A DNA stretch of 42,484 nt, from assembly GCA_900314635.1 (NCBI GenBank), contig OMVY01000009.1, positions 1 through 42,484 of the forward strand. Reading direction: 5' to 3'. The number at the start of each line of letters is the position of its first letter. Positions within the stretch are counted from its first letter, which is position 1. Below the pieces are notes generated by a model. It saw only the letters and a list, made by a program, of their open reading frames with translations. It ran no database searches and was not told the DNA's origin. This DNA is from an uncultured Methanobrevibacter sp. (GTDB taxonomy: Archaea > Methanobacteriota > Methanobacteria > Methanobacteriales > Methanobacteriaceae). Positions 3,400 to 37,723 of this stretch are shown piece by piece. A program made the translations under genes and the position numbers.

Positions 3400-4377
3400 A
3401 TGGAATTATTAAATAAGATTTTATCTAAAAGTAATAGTTATAATTATTACAAAACAAATTTTCAAAAATTCAAAAAAGAAAATAAACAGTTAAAAAATGA
3501 AATTGAAGAATTAAATAATAATATTTCTCAAGAAAAGATATTAAAGGAAAAAGAAATAAATAAACTTAATAAACAGCACCATAATGAAATTAATAATCTC
3601 AATCAACAATATACTGATGAAATTAATAACCTTTATGGAACTTTTTATTCATTAAAAAAAGATTTAAGCAATATATATGTAGCAGATAGCAGAATTAATA
3701 ATGAAATTCATTATGCATTTATATTTAATGATACTATAAAAAATTCTATTTGGTTAGAAAAAACTGATTTTTCTTTAGTAAATTCCGCTGCTAATTACTC
3801 ATTTATGTATTCTTTATATAGGATTTTGAATGATGCAACACCAAAAAATATTTTAGAATTAGGTTTGGGCCAAACTACTAAATTAACTTCTCAATATGCA
3901 AAATATTTTGATGATGTTAAGTTGACTGTATTTGAAACTGATGAAGATTGGATTCAAACATTTTCTCAAAAGTTAGATTTAACAGGCAATGTAGAAATAA
4001 TTAATTTGAGTGAAGAAAGTTTCGATTGTTATGGTACAACAAGTATTCGTTTTAAAGATATTTCAAATGCTGTTGGGGATGAAAAATATGATTTGATAAT
4101 TATTGATGGTCCTAGAGGTTTTATAAATGGGCCTGATGGAGATATATTGTTAGAATATTCAAGAACAGATATTTGGCAATTAATTCCTTCTAATTTAGCT
4201 AATGATTTTATAATTATCATGGATGATTATCATAGAGTTGGTGAAAAAAATACTATGGATCATGTTGAAAAATTGCTAAAAGAGAATAATAAAGAACTTT
4301 TCTCATATACTTGCCATGGATTTAAAACACAGTGTGCTGTTTTCACAAAAAAATATAAATTTATTAGTTGGATTTGA
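3400..4377 (+). CDS. Coiled coil plus class I methyltransferase-like domain
   Basis: Residues from about 15 to 95 form a predicted coiled coil with HHNEINNLNQ-type repeats. From about 145 a Rossmann-type domain follows: NILELGLGQTTKL resembles the glycine motif I of SAM-dependent methyltransferases, VFETD would be the acidic end of strand 2, and DLIIIDGPRG the motif-IV strand. This is the third gene in a row with coiled coil or glycan-enzyme features, so it probably modifies the same surface polymer; the substrate is unknown. A non-methyltransferase Rossmann role (for example a sugar-modifying enzyme) is possible. The start ATG at 3400 has only GGTGTTT upstream as a weak ribosome site. Confidence 0.65.
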   Translation: MELLNKILSKSNSYNYYKTNFQKFKKENKQLKNEIEELNNNISQEKILKEKEINKLNKQHHNEINNLNQQYTDEINNLYGTFYSLKKDLSNIYVADSRINNEIHYAFIFNDTIKNSIWLEKTDFSLVNSAANYSFMYSLYRILNDATPKNILELGLGQTTKLTSQYAKYFDDVKLTVFETDEDWIQTFSQKLDLTGNVEIINLSEESFDCYGTTSIRFKDISNAVGDEKYDLIIIDGPRGFINGPDGDILLEYSRTDIWQLIPSNLANDFIIIMDDYHRVGEKNTMDHVEKLLKENNKELFSYTCHGFKTQCAVFTKKYKFISWI

Positions 4378-5323: not shown

Positions 5324-5749
5324 GCCATTTAAAGTTTAAATAACTATTTTTTTAATTTTCTTTTTTATTTTTATATTTTCTTTTTTTTTACTCTATTTTT
5401 TATTTTCATTTTTTTACTCTATTTTTTATTTTCATTTTTTTATGGAATTTCTGATATTTTTTTAATCTATTTTCTTTAAATTTATAAAAAATCATTAAAA
5501 TAACTTGTTTTTCCCATTTTCATATTTTAATTCCTTATTTTTAGTTATACCAAAATATTATTATTCTTATTCTGATAATATCAAAATATGATTTATTTTT
5601 TCAAGAATTAAATAGATAAATTTAAGAATGCTCAATTACATAATACAAATTAATTATATACTTAATAAAATGCTATGATTAGTGTTTGAAAATTAAGATA
5701 TATAATTTGTTAACAAATTTTATAGAATTAATTTTTGGAGATTGATTTT
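5324..5749. repeat. T-rich gap with 26-bp tandem repeat
   Basis: Non-coding between upp and the next gene. After the upp stop come long T-runs that probably end transcription. They include a 26-bp unit containing ACTCTATTTTTTATTTTCAT, present twice with the ACTC at 5390 and 5416. The 3' part holds the promoter described at 5697-5719. Confidence 0.5.
5697..5719 (+). promoter_or_regulatory. Promoter with 16-bp palindrome before the DUF2193-like gene
   Basis: A TATA-like GATATATAAT (about 5697-5706) is overlapped and followed by the perfect palindrome AATTTGTTAACAAATT (5704-5719). With initiation about 25 bases after the TATA box the palindrome would sit between TATA and the start site, a usual place for an archaeal repressor. 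The ribosome site TTGGAG (5735-5740) precedes the ATG at 5750. Confidence 0.4.
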
Positions 5750-19913: not shown

Positions 19914-20342
19914 TTAAGTGATTGTTTTTTTATTTTTTTTCATAAGGATTTTTTTAATAAAAAAATTCTTTATTATTAAATTAATTTTCATAAATATTTT
20001 TTAATTAAAGTTTTTATATTATAAATTCTCATAAAAAAGATTTTTTATAATTAAATTCTTTTTATAAAAGATTTTTTTTATATTATAAAATCTTATATGC
20101 GATTTTTTTATAATTAAATTCTTTTTATAAAAGATTTTTAAATTCTTTTTATAAAAGATTTTTTTTATATTATAAAATCTTATATGCGATTTTTTTATAA
20201 TTAAATTCTTTTTATAAAAGATTTTTTTTATATTATTAAAATCTTATAAAAAGATTTTTTATATTAAAAGTTTTTTAATATATTAAAAAGATTTTATTCA
20301 AAAAAGTTTATTCTTTCTTTGAATTTGTTTGAAGATGTTATT
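19914..20342. repeat. Gap with 87-bp tandem repeat
   Basis: Almost pure A/T. An 87-bp unit starting AAATTCTTTTTATAAAAGAT begins at 20053 and again at 20140; it contains the distinctive TTATATGCGA. A third, degenerate part runs to about 20260. Shorter TATAAAAGATTTTT sub-repeats are nested inside. The promoter of the next gene must lie within or after the array, and no clear box can be singled out. Confidence 0.7.
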
Positions 20343-30236: not shown

Positions 30237-30479
30237 ATGTCTGACGTAGGTAAAGAAGTAATAAAAACTGTCATAACTTTAGTAACAACCGCATTTGGTT
30301 TAGTAGCAGGTTTAGCATGGAACGATGCAATTCAAGCTTTAATCAGCCAATTCTTCGAAGCAGGAAGCGCACTTACCGGACAAGTCGTTTATGCTGTAAT
30401 CGTAACTATCATTGCAGTTGTTGTAACCATCTTACTTGCTAGAATGGCAGGTAACATGGGTGTTGAATTAGACGAATAA
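30237..30479 (+). CDS. DUF5654-like small membrane protein
   Basis: Eighty residues with two hydrophobic segments (about 10-26 and 48-67) separated by LAWNDAIQALISQFFEAGS. I associate this with the archaeal family DUF5654, of unknown function. Codons are of the highly expressed kind (AAC, ATC, GTC), and the ribosome site GAGGAGAT is strong, so the protein may be abundant. It stands alone, with its own terminator directly after the stop. Confidence 0.65.
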   Translation: MSDVGKEVIKTVITLVTTAFGLVAGLAWNDAIQALISQFFEAGSALTGQVVYAVIVTIIAVVVTILLARMAGNMGVELDE

Positions 30480-30491
30480 GTCTTTTTTTTT

Positions 30492-30522
30492 AACTTAGAA
30501 TTTATTTTCTAAGTTTTTTTAT
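30492..30522 (+). terminator. Terminator after the DUF5654-like gene
   Basis: AACTTAGAA (30492-30500) pairs perfectly with TTCTAAGTT (30507-30515) around a six-base loop, followed by a run of T. It begins 13 bases after the stop. Confidence 0.7.
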
Positions 30523-30729
30523 CATTTTTTATTTATCTATTTTTAAAGTGCAGATTTCCTTTTTTTGCTTATTTGACTGTTTTTTTAGAATTAGTATTTC
30601 ATTTAATGATTTATCAATCGATTTTTTTCATCTAGTAAAATCGTTTTTTAGTTATTTATAAAATCGTTTTTGATTATTGTAAATTCCTTTTTTCTTTTGT
30701 TTTGATAATTATTTAAAACAATTTTCAAT

Positions 30730-30806
30730 TTTAGGCAAACCTAAATATATAAATACTATAATTTACAAATTTAGGTATACCTAAAGATATTTATATTTTT
30801 AGGTAA
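30730..30806 (+). promoter_or_regulatory. Orphan promoter with two metal-repressor-like palindromes
   Basis: TTTAGGCAAACCTAAA (30730-30745) and TTTAGGTATACCTAAA (30770-30785, perfect) are exactly 40 bp apart, and a half-site TTTAGGTAA follows at 30798-30806. Between the two lies a TATA-like TAAATATATAAATAC, so the first box covers the upstream edge and the second the expected start site. TTAGG-N-CCTAA boxes are typical of DtxR/IdeR/MntR-family repressors. No recognisable gene follows on the plus strand up to the convergent helicase at 31108. The whole gap 30480-31107 holds only this, the terminator, and a 22-codon hydrophobic ORF (30940-31008). Confidence 0.6.
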
Positions 30807-30939
30807 TTTCAAAAAATATTTAAAGGCAGAAAAAATTTTTTGATTAAGAAAGGGTTTTAGATTAATTATATATTTAAAAAAAGTTTTTCAAACTAATTAA
30901 AGCGATAATATCCATTCGGATCTTATAGTTTTGATAATC

Positions 30940-31008
30940 ATGAATTCAATATATTTTTTTCTAAAACTTTTTCTTTTAGGAATCGTTGCCTTTTTGGGCT
31001 TGTTTTAA
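30940..31008 (+). other. Possible 22-residue hydrophobic peptide
   Basis: An ATG-started ORF, MNSIYFFLKLFLLGIVAFLG plus two residues, lies 155 bases downstream of the second metal-box palindrome. It would be a single membrane helix. The ribosome site is poor (TTTTGATAATC). It is the only plausible product on the plus strand of this orphan promoter, but such a short ORF can occur by chance. Confidence 0.2.
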
Positions 31009-31107
31009 TAGTTTTCTACAAGATTAAGTTGTGAAAAAACAGTTAGGTATTTTTTACAAATTCAAGTCTTTAAAGAAAGAAATGAGATATCTTCTTGTAA
31101 AATTATG

Positions 31108-34011
31108 CTATTTTCCTTTTTCTATAATCTTGATTAACTTATCCGCTTCTTTTATTATTTCCTTGTTATTGTATGCCCTGGCTACCCTTTTTATTGCGTC
31201 AAGGTTTCTGACATAGGTGTCCAGCCATGCAAAGATGTCTCCTGGATATGCTTGAATCTGATAATCCCTCATCAGGGATTTGGAAATATCAATAGGATCC
31301 TTTCTATCAAGCCTCTGATTGAGGATGTAATATGAAATTCCTCTCTGCAGGCATTCGCAGAAGGGCCTCTCGGCGCAATCACATCTTAAAAAGTCTATCT
31401 GTATCTTGAGCAGTGCTTCCTGGAACTTCTTATCTAGTTTGGCCATTGCCTCCCCTGATGAGATGATGTCCAGGGTGGATTCTGAAAAGAGCCTGGTTGA
31501 AAAATTCATTTTGAGGGCTGAGATTATCTGCTTGTGAACAGCAGGGGCAAGATAGGCATTTTCAAATAGTTCAAGGTCAAGAGCTATTGACTGGACTTTT
31601 AGAAGGGCATTGGCATTTACTTCATCATTGGTCATTTTCTCATGAATGCCTTTGAAGATGTTATTTGCATTTTTTATTTTAATGCTTTCATTCTTCTTGG
31701 ATAATTTTTGATTTTTAGTGCTGTTCTTCTTTTGTTTTTTAGAATTGTCATTAGCTTGCTTTTGTTTTTTAGAATAGTCATTAGCTTGCTTTTGTTTTTT
31801 AGAATAGTCATTAGCTTGCTTTTGTTTTTTGGAATTGTTATTAACTTGATTTTGTTTTTTAGAGCCTTTTTTAGAATCGTTGTTTCTGTTCTTTTGACTG
31901 TTTTTTCTGTTCTGCTTGTCTATCTTGTTGGAAAGCTTATGCAGATCCTTTAAGGCATTTTTAAAGAATGGTTTCTTATAATACTGGCTTAAATAATGAG
32001 GATTCTCCATTGAATCCTTGATAACCATTCCATCGTCTACTGAGATGAATGACATTGAAACAGCTCGGCCGAACTTGGTATTTCTGATTGTTCCGTCTGC
32101 AGATATATGTATAGCTTTCTTATCATCAAGCTCGTCAAGGGCTGCATTTAAATCGATAGGAACTGGAATATTCTGGTAGAACTCCTCAACTTCTTCAATA
32201 GTATTGAGGGACTTTGATGATATGTCTGCAAGAATCTGCTCAAGGCTTCCCTCTTCGGTGTAGTCGACATAAATGTTTTCAACATCGCTTTCAAGAAGAT
32301 CCAATGCAACAGCCTCCTCGCTTTCGCCGTCAAATTCGTTTGCAATCTCAGGAATGAGATAGACAAGTCCCCTGTCGTGATAGCTAGGCCTTCCCGCTCT
32401 TCCAAGCATTTGGGAAAACTCGTTTGGTGTAATCCACTTGTTTCCCATAATGAGGGATTCGAAAATTACCTGGGATGCTGGAAAATCGACTCCTGCTGCA
32501 AGGGCTGCAGTGGTTACGACAGCTGTTATTTTTCCTTTTGCAAAGTTCTTTTCAATTCTCTCCTTTTTGGAATAGGACAAACCTGCATGATAGGCAGCTG
32601 CGTTTATTCCTTTGTTTGATAGGAAGTTGGCAAGCTTGTGTGTTTTTCGACGGGAATTAGTAAAAATCAGGCTTTGTCCGTTATAGCCTTTGGATGATTT
32701 GTTATAGAATTCCTGATTGACCAGCTTTCTGATTAGGAGCCTTCTTTGGACATCTCCTCTTACAAAGATTATGTGGCGCTCTAAAGGTACTGGACGCTCC
32801 TTGTACTGGACAAGCTTCATATTGAAGTCATCAGATAGTGTTTTCGGGTTTTTGACAGTTGCAGAGAGTCCTATTATCTGGGTATTTGGAAAGAGGTGTC
32901 TTATTCTCTTGATTAATCCGTTTAATCTCAATCCCCTTTCTTCATCGGAAATGGTATGGATTTCATCTATTAAAACCAGTCCAAGATTATCAAGCAGATG
33001 GGATTTTCCAGATCTGATGAGGAAGTCTATTCCTTCATAGGTTCCAACAACTATGTCTGCATTTGCAATATTTGAATCAGGAAGGTTCAATTCTCCTTTT
33101 GCCTTGATTCTGTTTCCTCCAACTTTAATTGCTACTTTAAGACCCAGAGCTTCGTATTTTCTTTTGAACTCCCTGTATTTCTGGTTTGCAAGTGCTACGA
33201 GAGGTGTTAAAAAGAGGAATTTCTCGCCTCTCATCGCTTTTGGGACTCCTGCAAGTTCCCCGATCAAGGTTTTTCCGCTTCCTGTTGCAGATACTACAAG
33301 GGTGTTCTCGCCCCTCAGGACTCCCTCTCTTACTGCCAGATATTGAACTGGCAGAAGGTATTCGTTGTTGTTTTTGATTATGATTTTCTTGAAATTTTCA
33401 GGGATTTTCAGACGCTTTGTCGCAATCTTAGGTATTTTCCTGTCATGAACCTCCACCTTGTCGAACAATGTCAAATCGGAATTCTTTATAGGATCAAAAC
33501 GTGGTGAAAGCATTTTCAATACTTCATCAAGATTTCCTGTCTTTTCCAATACCTTCTTGAAGTTTCTGAAAACCTTTTTATTGTATCCTCTAAGTTGAAG
33601 CTCTCTTTTTATGGTGTCTTCTGCACATTCCTTGCATATGAGCTGGTCGTGGTAGGTGTAGGAGTAGCTTGAGTTGATTATGGTTACGGCTCCCTCATAA
33701 CTGCAGTGCTGGCAGATGTTTGCATATCTCACAGATATGTTGTTTGCATTGAGGAATGTTTCCAGCTCCTCATCCTTCTGCGCTAGAAATACTGCCTGGG
33801 AGCGCAGGAATGAGACAGCCTTTGAAGGGGGATAGAGCTTCTCTTCAATATCGTCTTTCACTACAAAGCTTTTTATGTCTATTCCCTTTTCGGTTTCGAT
33901 GAATTTCAAAACCCCAATGAATTCAGGGACTCTTTTTGTATTCAATGCTCCTTTCGGACTTCCAATTGGATACATTTCCCATGATTTCTTTCTTTTGTTG
34001 AGTATGATCAT
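31108..34011 (-). CDS. Archaeal superfamily II helicase (COG1202/DUF5814 type)
   Basis: A 967-residue DEAD/DEAH-box helicase of an archaea-specific group. The N-terminal part has a zinc-ribbon-like CQHC...CKEC near 110-140. The motor follows: VVSATGSGKT (Walker A, about 240), LVLIDEIH (about 349), GLSATV (about 385) and QMLGRAGRPS (motif VI, about 535). Between about 700 and 775 is a Lys/Gln/Asn/Ser insert with four near-identical SKKQKQAND-type repeats. A second Cys cluster, RCDCAERPFCEC, lies near 870. It probably acts in DNA repair or RNA metabolism; the substrate is unknown. The ribosome site is weak (TTGATAAA). Confidence 0.85.
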   Translation of the reverse strand: MIILNKRKKSWEMYPIGSPKGALNTKRVPEFIGVLKFIETEKGIDIKSFVVKDDIEEKLYPPSKAVSFLRSQAVFLAQKDEELETFLNANNISVRYANICQHCSYEGAVTIINSSYSYTYHDQLICKECAEDTIKRELQLRGYNKKVFRNFKKVLEKTGNLDEVLKMLSPRFDPIKNSDLTLFDKVEVHDRKIPKIATKRLKIPENFKKIIIKNNNEYLLPVQYLAVREGVLRGENTLVVSATGSGKTLIGELAGVPKAMRGEKFLFLTPLVALANQKYREFKRKYEALGLKVAIKVGGNRIKAKGELNLPDSNIANADIVVGTYEGIDFLIRSGKSHLLDNLGLVLIDEIHTISDEERGLRLNGLIKRIRHLFPNTQIIGLSATVKNPKTLSDDFNMKLVQYKERPVPLERHIIFVRGDVQRRLLIRKLVNQEFYNKSSKGYNGQSLIFTNSRRKTHKLANFLSNKGINAAAYHAGLSYSKKERIEKNFAKGKITAVVTTAALAAGVDFPASQVIFESLIMGNKWITPNEFSQMLGRAGRPSYHDRGLVYLIPEIANEFDGESEEAVALDLLESDVENIYVDYTEEGSLEQILADISSKSLNTIEEVEEFYQNIPVPIDLNAALDELDDKKAIHISADGTIRNTKFGRAVSMSFISVDDGMVIKDSMENPHYLSQYYKKPFFKNALKDLHKLSNKIDKQNRKNSQKNRNNDSKKGSKKQNQVNNNSKKQKQANDYSKKQKQANDYSKKQKQANDNSKKQKKNSTKNQKLSKKNESIKIKNANNIFKGIHEKMTNDEVNANALLKVQSIALDLELFENAYLAPAVHKQIISALKMNFSTRLFSESTLDIISSGEAMAKLDKKFQEALLKIQIDFLRCDCAERPFCECLQRGISYYILNQRLDRKDPIDISKSLMRDYQIQAYPGDIFAWLDTYVRNLDAIKRVARAYNNKEIIKEADKLIKIIEKGK
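31731..31860 (-). repeat. 30-bp coding repeats in the helicase
   Basis: Units of 30 bp start at 31731, 31761, 31791 and 31821, with a partial copy at 31851. They encode SKKQKQAND plus one variable residue. The units are nearly identical in DNA, suggesting recent slippage and length variation between strains. Confidence 0.85.
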
Positions 34012-34926: not shown

Positions 34927-35472
34927 ATGGAAAGTAAAAAAGCTAAATTCAGTGTTTTTCTTGTTGTAGCTTTATTGGCTATTATTTGCAGCTCCTCATT
35001 ATATTCAGTGACTGGCGGTTTTTCCGATTGGATTGTAGCAAGCACTGTCAATGAGGATCAAAATAATAATGGCATCATAGACAGCGCGGAGAATGATAAT
35101 TCAATTGATTATTCAAACTCTTATAATGGTGAAGAGAGCAGTAATAATGAAGGTGGAGGACTGTTTGGATTTTTTTCAAATTCCCAAGACTCTTTTGACT
35201 CCAATTCTTATGATTCTTATTCAAGTGATTCTTCCAGCTCACAGGAGCCTGACTTGCTTGCCAGATTGCTCAGGGGTTTTTTAAACTCTGGAAATAGTGT
35301 TTCCACCAGTTACCAGGAATCTAATGGCTATGATAATTATAATGTTCCTGTATCTGATTATGATTTCTCAAGCCTTTCAGGTTCTGATTATGGGGATGGT
35401 TCTGACTATTCATCCATAATAGACAGGGGAGTTAATAAGGTTTCTGGAAAAATTAATTCATTGTTTTATTGA
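34927..35472 (+). CDS. Secreted Ser/Asp/Asn-rich protein with calcium-loop motif
   Basis: A 181-residue protein with N-terminal signal or anchor (basic MESKKAKFS, hydrophobic to about 28). The mature part is polar and low-complexity: Asn, Ser, Asp, Tyr and Gly dominate. DQNNNGIIDSAE (about 46-57) resembles an EF-hand or dockerin calcium loop. The N-terminus resembles the protein at 27615, suggesting a small paralogous family of surface proteins. GAGGT lies upstream of the ATG, near TTGTAAC. No enzymatic domain is recognised. Its promoter element is shared with 21723. Confidence 0.6.
   Translation: MESKKAKFSVFLVVALLAIICSSSLYSVTGGFSDWIVASTVNEDQNNNGIIDSAENDNSIDYSNSYNGEESSNNEGGGLFGFFSNSQDSFDSNSYDSYSSDSSSSQEPDLLARLLRGFLNSGNSVSTSYQESNGYDNYNVPVSDYDFSSLSGSDYGDGSDYSSIIDRGVNKVSGKINSLFY

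Positions 35473-37054: not shown

Positions 37055-37723
<669 letters not shown>

Follow-up and report, generated by a model that had tools for sequence, protein, structure and literature searches.

A pair of DtxR-type operator boxes in a Methanobrevibacter genome marks a promoter that may produce an untranslated, structured and iron-repressed RNA of about 220 nt. We put the probability of this reading at slightly under one half (about 0.47), and it draws in part on a predicted fold. An untranslated product is proposed because no ORF led by a Shine-Dalgarno-like string follows the boxes and the plus strand has an unusual fold. The window, i.e. the whole stretch of DNA analysed here, comprises 42,484 nucleotides of a 2.29-Mb genome (G000, contig C10). 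When iron is plentiful, the boxes on either side of the TATA element would be bound by an Fe-loaded repressor, which would stop plus-strand transcription. When iron is scarce, the block would be lifted and a strongly paired RNA would be made, ending ahead of a convergent helicase gene. Repression by iron, transcription, the RNA ends and action as an RNA are what we infer from the features described below. We conclude that the window locus belongs to the iron regulon; it was not found in the 18 relatives compared, some of which are incomplete.

The box pair and its probable iron regulon

The boxes lie in a 628-bp gap between a DUF5654 gene on the plus strand and a DEAD-box helicase gene on the minus strand (Table 1). 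The sequence-only reading had described two 16-bp TTTAGG-N4-CCTAAA palindromes with a TATA box between them and an additional half-site, and all of these elements were located, with 40 bp from the start of box 1 to the start of box 2. Archaeal transcription starts approximately 25 nt after the TATA element, and given this distance box 2 would overlie the start site. Alternatively, the half-site may pair with box 2 and so form one side of a predicted hairpin. A 40-nt direct repeat with 73% identity spans the boxes. The downstream plus strand had been described as AT-rich DNA with a single 22-codon ORF; both the AT-richness and the ORF were confirmed, and the next listed plus-strand gene starts more than 4 kb away.

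Table 1. Positions of the box pair, the neighbouring genes and the predicted elements in the window
Feature	Position	Strand	Remark
DUF5654 small protein (PF18898) gene	30237-30479	+	upstream neighbour; boxes not in front of the gene
DtxR-type box 1, TTTAGGCAAACCTAAA	30730-30745	unstranded	exact TTTAGG-N4-CCTAAA palindrome
TATA-like element, TATAAATA	30748-30755	+	between the two boxes
DtxR-type box 2, TTTAGGTATACCTAAA	30770-30785	unstranded	exact TTTAGG-N4-CCTAAA palindrome
Putative noncoding transcript, ~220 nt	30776-30995	+	fold prediction
Hairpin of box 2 and third half-site (TACCTAAAGATAT / ATATTTTTAGGTA)	30778-30805	+	predicted fold
Second, alternative TATA-like element, TATTTATA	30788-30795	+	core score -1.2
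Half-site, TTTAGGTA	30798-30805		3' of both boxes
Long, imperfectly paired hairpin with AAAGGCAG/TTGCCTTT at its base, then U	30822-30993	+	predicted fold
Hydrophobic ORF, 22 codons from ATG (25 from TTG)	30931/30940-31008	+	ORF listing
DEAD-box helicase gene with DUF5814 domain	31108-34011	-	convergent

A genome-wide search, which the earlier reading had called for, retrieved 18 exact boxes versus one for the reversed-pattern control, and the boxes associate with iron genes. The zero-order expectation from base composition is 0.26 exact palindromes per 2.29 Mb and 3.4e-5 in the 628-bp gap. All but one of the exact boxes (17/18) fall outside every picked ORF of at least 60 aa; the remaining one overlaps a 73-aa ORF that was judged spurious. 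When one mismatch is allowed, the genome contains 38 sites versus 33 for the control and the excess is nearly gone, so the case rests on exact sites. With up to three mismatches, the window contains 35 sites versus 34.5 expected, which is uninformative. Across the 19 genomes of the genus, our own included, 178 exact boxes were counted versus 19 for the control, with one in the incomplete genome G010 and none in the incomplete G011.

Genes next to exact boxes include those encoding FeoA, FeoB, a heavy-metal P-type ATPase, EhaA of the Eha hydrogenase and an HTH-Fer4 protein. A radical SAM protein gene facing a methyltransferase gene, an LCM methyltransferase gene facing a PEMT protein gene, and genes for a TPR protein, a pseudouridine synthase, a PHP protein and small proteins are also adjacent to exact boxes. 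The neighbours of one-mismatch boxes were inspected for 17 of 20 sites (C7:107227, C10:139731 and C15:6587 were left out) and include ferredoxin-like proteins, flavodoxin, FlpD, MtrE, a NiFe hydrogenase subunit and an HMA P-type ATPase. HisG, a DnaJ protein, an amidohydrolase and a protein with a metallo-beta-lactamase fold were found near such sites as well, and some of these are probably due to chance.

One strong DtxR-family match (93 bits, contig C36) and one weak match below the cut-off were identified in the genome. The strong one carries a C-terminal FeoA domain, and a one-mismatch box precedes its gene. The core of the window box is the 14-bp TTAGGNNNNCCTAA, which according to PMC8464063 is a consensus proposed for DtxR/IdeR operators. 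Because the box neighbours include iron genes, the regulator has a FeoA domain and the core is that consensus, we assign the window site, as a putative promoter, to an iron regulon under the DtxR-family protein of this cell. The metal-repressed DtxR-type promoter suggested earlier is supported by the same exact box near feoAB and other iron genes, together with the near-exact copy before the sole strong DtxR-family gene.

The choice between iron and manganese had been left open by the sequence-only reading. An MntR-type promoter that responds to manganese would fit the ranking of the strong DtxR-family protein, which is nearest to the NCBIfam MntR models with every score below the cut-off, and MntP is encoded by one of the mRNAs with a leader complementary to the motif of the related RNAs described below. 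The target list (FeoAB, ferredoxin-like proteins, hydrogenase subunits and flavodoxin) and the FeoA domain of the regulator argue against manganese and favour iron, and we regard a manganese promoter as improbable.

Two further box-bearing loci in this genome were observed. At L021:3789-6721 on the minus strand (G000, contig C19), a DUF6110-like protein gene and the heavy-metal P-type ATPase gene adjoin an exact box. The DUF6110-like protein scores 24.4 bits, under the 26-bit cut-off; DUF6110 is reported to be encoded together with P1B6 ATPases (PMC9374683). At L016:3145-3260 on the plus strand (G000, contig C7), an exact box is followed by a TATA element recognised by eye. A minus-strand gene ends at 3624 of L016, and no plus-strand ORF was found before 4654. 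If it does not act for the TPR gene on the minus strand, this locus would be a second candidate for an orphan iron promoter.

Predicted product of the window promoter

No ORF behind a Shine-Dalgarno-like string (2-12 bases before the start) was found in 30786-31140 on the plus strand or in 30451-30730 on the minus strand. The 22-codon ORF was rejected as a gene: it has no such string in front and no Pfam or NCBIfam match, and it falls mostly within the U-rich 3' arm of the predicted hairpin. A short hydrophobic peptide of 22-25 residues, which the sequence-only reading had offered as a product, would fit the presence of this ORF and the fact that similar double-box promoters of relatives precede proteins of 25-33 residues. 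Those small proteins have a Shine-Dalgarno string (the scan required it) and no ORF here does; the family searches and the use of hairpin-arm bases as codons count against it as well, and we consider a peptide product very unlikely.

The plus strand of 30776-31003 folds at -52.3 kcal/mol (z -4.97), with none of 200 shuffles as stable, and the minus strand of the same segment gives z -3.15. When the box hairpin is left out (30806-31003), the plus strand gives z -3.49 (0/200 shuffles) and the minus strand z -2.31 (2/200). The plus strand of 30818-31107 gives z -3.40 (1/200). The intergenic DNA of the window was also tiled on both strands (152 tiles, 40 shuffles each), and the plus-strand tile 30780-30975 ranked second of 152 (z -6.24). 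The segment 30775-30970 gave z -3.3 on the plus strand and -3.55 on the minus strand with 40 shuffles, and -4.1 on the plus strand with 200 shuffles. The box palindrome itself accounts for some of this folding signal. Ranked first among the tiles was 20014-20209, a low-complexity AT-rich repeat, and strongly folding repeats extend across 20014-20318; foldability alone is therefore no proof of an RNA. The small regulated RNA proposed by the sequence-only reading agrees with the predicted structure, namely the strong plus-strand fold.

The long hairpin and the U that follows it are a possible termination signal, which would place the RNA end near 30995; a scan for bacterial-type terminators found none. 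No Rfam family was matched at gathering level in the window, and three sub-threshold miRNA and snoRNA matches in the gap are taken as chance. A tRNA search of the window also found none. A repeat or MITE was considered and rejected, as the hairpin has no second copy in its own genome; the matches were the locus itself, the promoter on contig C18 and one 27-base match.

A transcript running along the minus strand toward the 3' side of the DUF5654 gene could also be served by these boxes. The TATA element is nearly symmetrical, and the minus-strand tile 30680-30875 has z -5.85, with both palindromic boxes inside it. The minus strand of 30480-30722 reaches only z -2.0, and the two best promoter cores within the gap are both on the plus strand, so that a minus-strand product appears improbable too.

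Core strength was scored with a promoter matrix built from 58 double-box promoter cores. The two plus-strand cores in the gap score -1.2 each, the weakest of the 58 training cores 11.4, and the next-best core in the gap, on the minus strand at 30901, -2.06. With a slightly smaller training set, the core at 30748 scores -0.6 and ranks 30th of approximately 85,000 window positions, and it outranks the core located 108 bp before the gene at 34927. Since 10 of the 29 positions that score above it fall inside genes, the matrix is not very specific. The window core is low for the double-box class, yet within the range of other promoter-like sites in the window. Two strong promoter-like cores were observed elsewhere on the plus strand, at 37228 and 37446 (37228-37460); no listed plus-strand gene follows for more than 2 kb, and the Rfam and tRNA searches of the window gave no match.

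Mainly because of the weak core score, a relic or newly arisen operator pair is retained as a rival. Here the boxes would still bind the repressor, the promoter would be decayed and little or no useful product would be made; one possible origin of the pair is a copied small-protein or RNA promoter that has lost its gene. The promoter segment shares 78% identity over 65 bp with the small-protein promoter on contig C18, the closest promoter in its own genome. The direct repeat across the boxes, the drop of the fold to z -3.49 without the box hairpin and the failure to find the locus in relatives are also consistent with a relic. Against decay, neither box has a mismatch, and none of the 200 shuffles of the downstream strand is as stable as the native sequence. 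We regard a relic as unlikely, while weighing it more seriously than the peptide, minus-strand and manganese alternatives.

The helicase 3' side was examined in 16 of the 18 relatives, and in two of these the contigs end approximately 80 and 220 bases from the gene. In the remaining 14, the ORFs beside the helicase are unlike those of the window and no exact box occurs 3' of the helicase; the sole box-like site listed near the helicase has one mismatch and lies about 1.6 kb away in one relative. DUF5654 matches are present in 18/18 relatives, and the contig of the nearest one (97.5% protein identity) ends 186 bases past the gene, short of the box positions. No counterpart of the 40-bp-spaced locus or of its downstream sequence was found in the 18 genus relatives, several of which are incomplete. 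A nucleotide search of the 19 genomes gave only short fragments from relatives, which we take to be promoter-like or AT-rich matches. Without a counterpart in relatives, conservation cannot test the structure. The loss of a transport gene, another suggestion of the sequence-only reading, gained no positive support: the surroundings of the helicase 3' side differ in the readable relatives, and the check for a gene remnant in the gap comprised the ORF listing and a family search of the 22-residue ORF.

Double-box promoters and a conserved candidate RNA pair in relatives

Two exact boxes 22-52 bases apart were found in 58 of 119 family genomes, and the control gave 0 in every row. At least one double-box promoter is present in 16 of the 18 genus relatives, with none in G010 and G011. 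A total of 40 stretches holding 52 double-box promoters were cut from relatives and scanned for ORFs of at least 15 aa behind any of four Shine-Dalgarno strings. The first group consists of tandem promoters 429-582 bp apart in 12 of 18 relatives, each with a box spacing of 66-68 bp; a mismatch occurs in one box of a single pair. Three further relatives have a single first-group promoter, one of them at a contig end. None of the 27 first-group loci of relatives has a Shine-Dalgarno-led ORF.

The second group contains 15 loci with boxes 54-55 bp apart, and 11 of these precede a short basic protein (LGRSKSGICGKKQ...SFR(R/K)). Among the rest, two different short proteins follow the promoters in G009, and no ORF was retrieved at two loci. 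In the genome analysed here, iron-box promoters precede three short ORFs at L019:2916-3254 and 3638-3915 on the minus strand (contig C18). One encodes a 30-residue basic protein that is kin to the GKKQ protein of the 11 relatives' loci, and this version would begin with CTG; the other two proteins are lysine-rich, one with a CC pair. At L134 (G009, contig C94), a double-box promoter precedes a 25-residue cysteine-rich protein (MAGCCCANCKNPNCKCKKQ...), possibly a small metal-binding peptide. A third group comes from another genus (g5, three genomes); judged by eye, its ORF looks like the beginning of FeoB. An alignment of seven more g5 loci showed a TCTCC string in four, and there was no significant match to the covariance models R1 and R2, which describe the 3' module of the RNA pair presented next.

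The tandem promoters of the first group define a pair of candidate RNAs, A and B. The genome analysed here has its own tandem pair at 4105 and 4527 of L022 (L022:4105-4925, G000:C19:233104-233924); the two promoters are separated by 422 bp, and a box of the second has one mismatch. A third copy lies on the minus strand of L021 (3571-3140, boxes at 3556 and 3492). Box spacing in these copies is 64-67 bp, and the three were outside the Shine-Dalgarno ORF scan. They fold with z -10.1, -6.0 and -4.9 (40 shuffles), with z -7.8 for B in another run. Rfam searches gave nothing in eight relatives' loci and, in five loci of our own genome, nothing except two tRNAs and one sub-threshold match.

A C-rich CAAYCUCC motif (DNA CAAYCTCC) lies 3' of the promoter in 26 of the 27 relatives' loci, counted before any selection of rows; the exception is the type-B copy of G003. 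Alignments A1 and A2 comprise 14 rows each, chosen by CAAYCTCCAAA and excluding the third copy of this genome (on L021), and the invariance of the motif within them arises by selection. In both, a conserved 3' hairpin adjoins the motif and the end is rich in U, and A1 has a second hairpin before the motif. Three pairs in A1 and one in A2 changed on both sides, so covariation is modest. R2 matches 15 of the 19 genus genomes, with none in G003, G009, G010 and G011, and all 22 matches lie within double-box RNA loci, many of which belonged to the training set.

The motif complement TTTGGAGRTTG occurs in 10 copies in the genome versus one for the reversed control, and three of the 10 are the RNAs themselves. 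Three of the other seven are at genes, with the start codon 14-16 bases past the first base of the motif; these genes encode DUF2193, ThiI and MntP. The DUF2193 copy lies in the window, where 5734-5744 (TTTGGAGATTG) is an exact motif complement and forms the Shine-Dalgarno region of the gene (start 5750). Since no obvious iron enzyme is among these three proteins, this complementarity may serve as a lead and is not a target prediction.

Membership of the window locus in the A/B group was considered and rejected. The putative window RNA shares with A and B the operator, the double-box layout, the lack of a Shine-Dalgarno-led ORF and a predicted structure, but its boxes are 40 rather than 66-68 bp apart, it has no CAAYCUCC motif and it fails R1 and R2. 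The best scores in 30480-31500 are 11.9 and 8.2 bits, whereas the two A/B members of this genome score 43-78 bits, both being in the training sets. The evidence for the tandem pair is stronger than that for the window locus.

Relation to known iron-responsive systems

The window boxes have the same core and spacing as DtxR/IdeR operators and resemble them in the putative iron-gene regulon and in the one-mismatch box before the regulator's own gene. They differ from these operators in belonging to an archaeal TATA promoter, with 16-bp palindromes on both sides of the TATA element. The double-box genes for small basic proteins (LGRSKSGICGKKQ...) are the nearest relatives by promoter, with the 78% identity given above, and differ in having a Shine-Dalgarno-led ORF.

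RNA-based iron sparing is well established in bacteria, where RyhB, PrrF, FsrA and IsrR are Fur-controlled iron-sparing sRNAs (PMC9410917). The arrangement in the window would work like these systems, in which a promoter carrying boxes for a metal repressor drives a structured RNA without translation, here a predicted one. IsrR is repressed by iron, has two Fur boxes and contains C-rich regions that are single-stranded (PMC9410917); the window promoter likewise has two boxes of the cell's own putative iron repressor. The known RNAs are bacterial and Fur-controlled, unlike the window RNA, which in its predicted form also has no C-rich motif. The conserved pair resembles the IsrR design in both its C-rich motif and its two repressor boxes, and is a candidate for archaeal RNAs of the RyhB/IsrR type.

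It is tentatively proposed that the DtxR-controlled RNAs of Methanobrevibacter are an archaeal counterpart of RyhB and IsrR, in which a conserved pair would mask Shine-Dalgarno sequences through an exposed CAAYCUCC and species-added copies, such as the window RNA, would be additional members. Leyn and Rodionov (2015) reportedly compared DtxR regulons across archaea, and their study, cited in PMC11349517, may already describe the box and its regulon. A literature search by title, with most subscription papers outside it, found no title describing an iron-regulated small RNA in methanogens or archaea.

The boxes provide a simple means to list candidate iron-regulated RNAs. Hydrogenotrophic methanogens have many Fe-S proteins, and an RNA layer of iron control, if true, would therefore bear on methane production in the rumen and gut.
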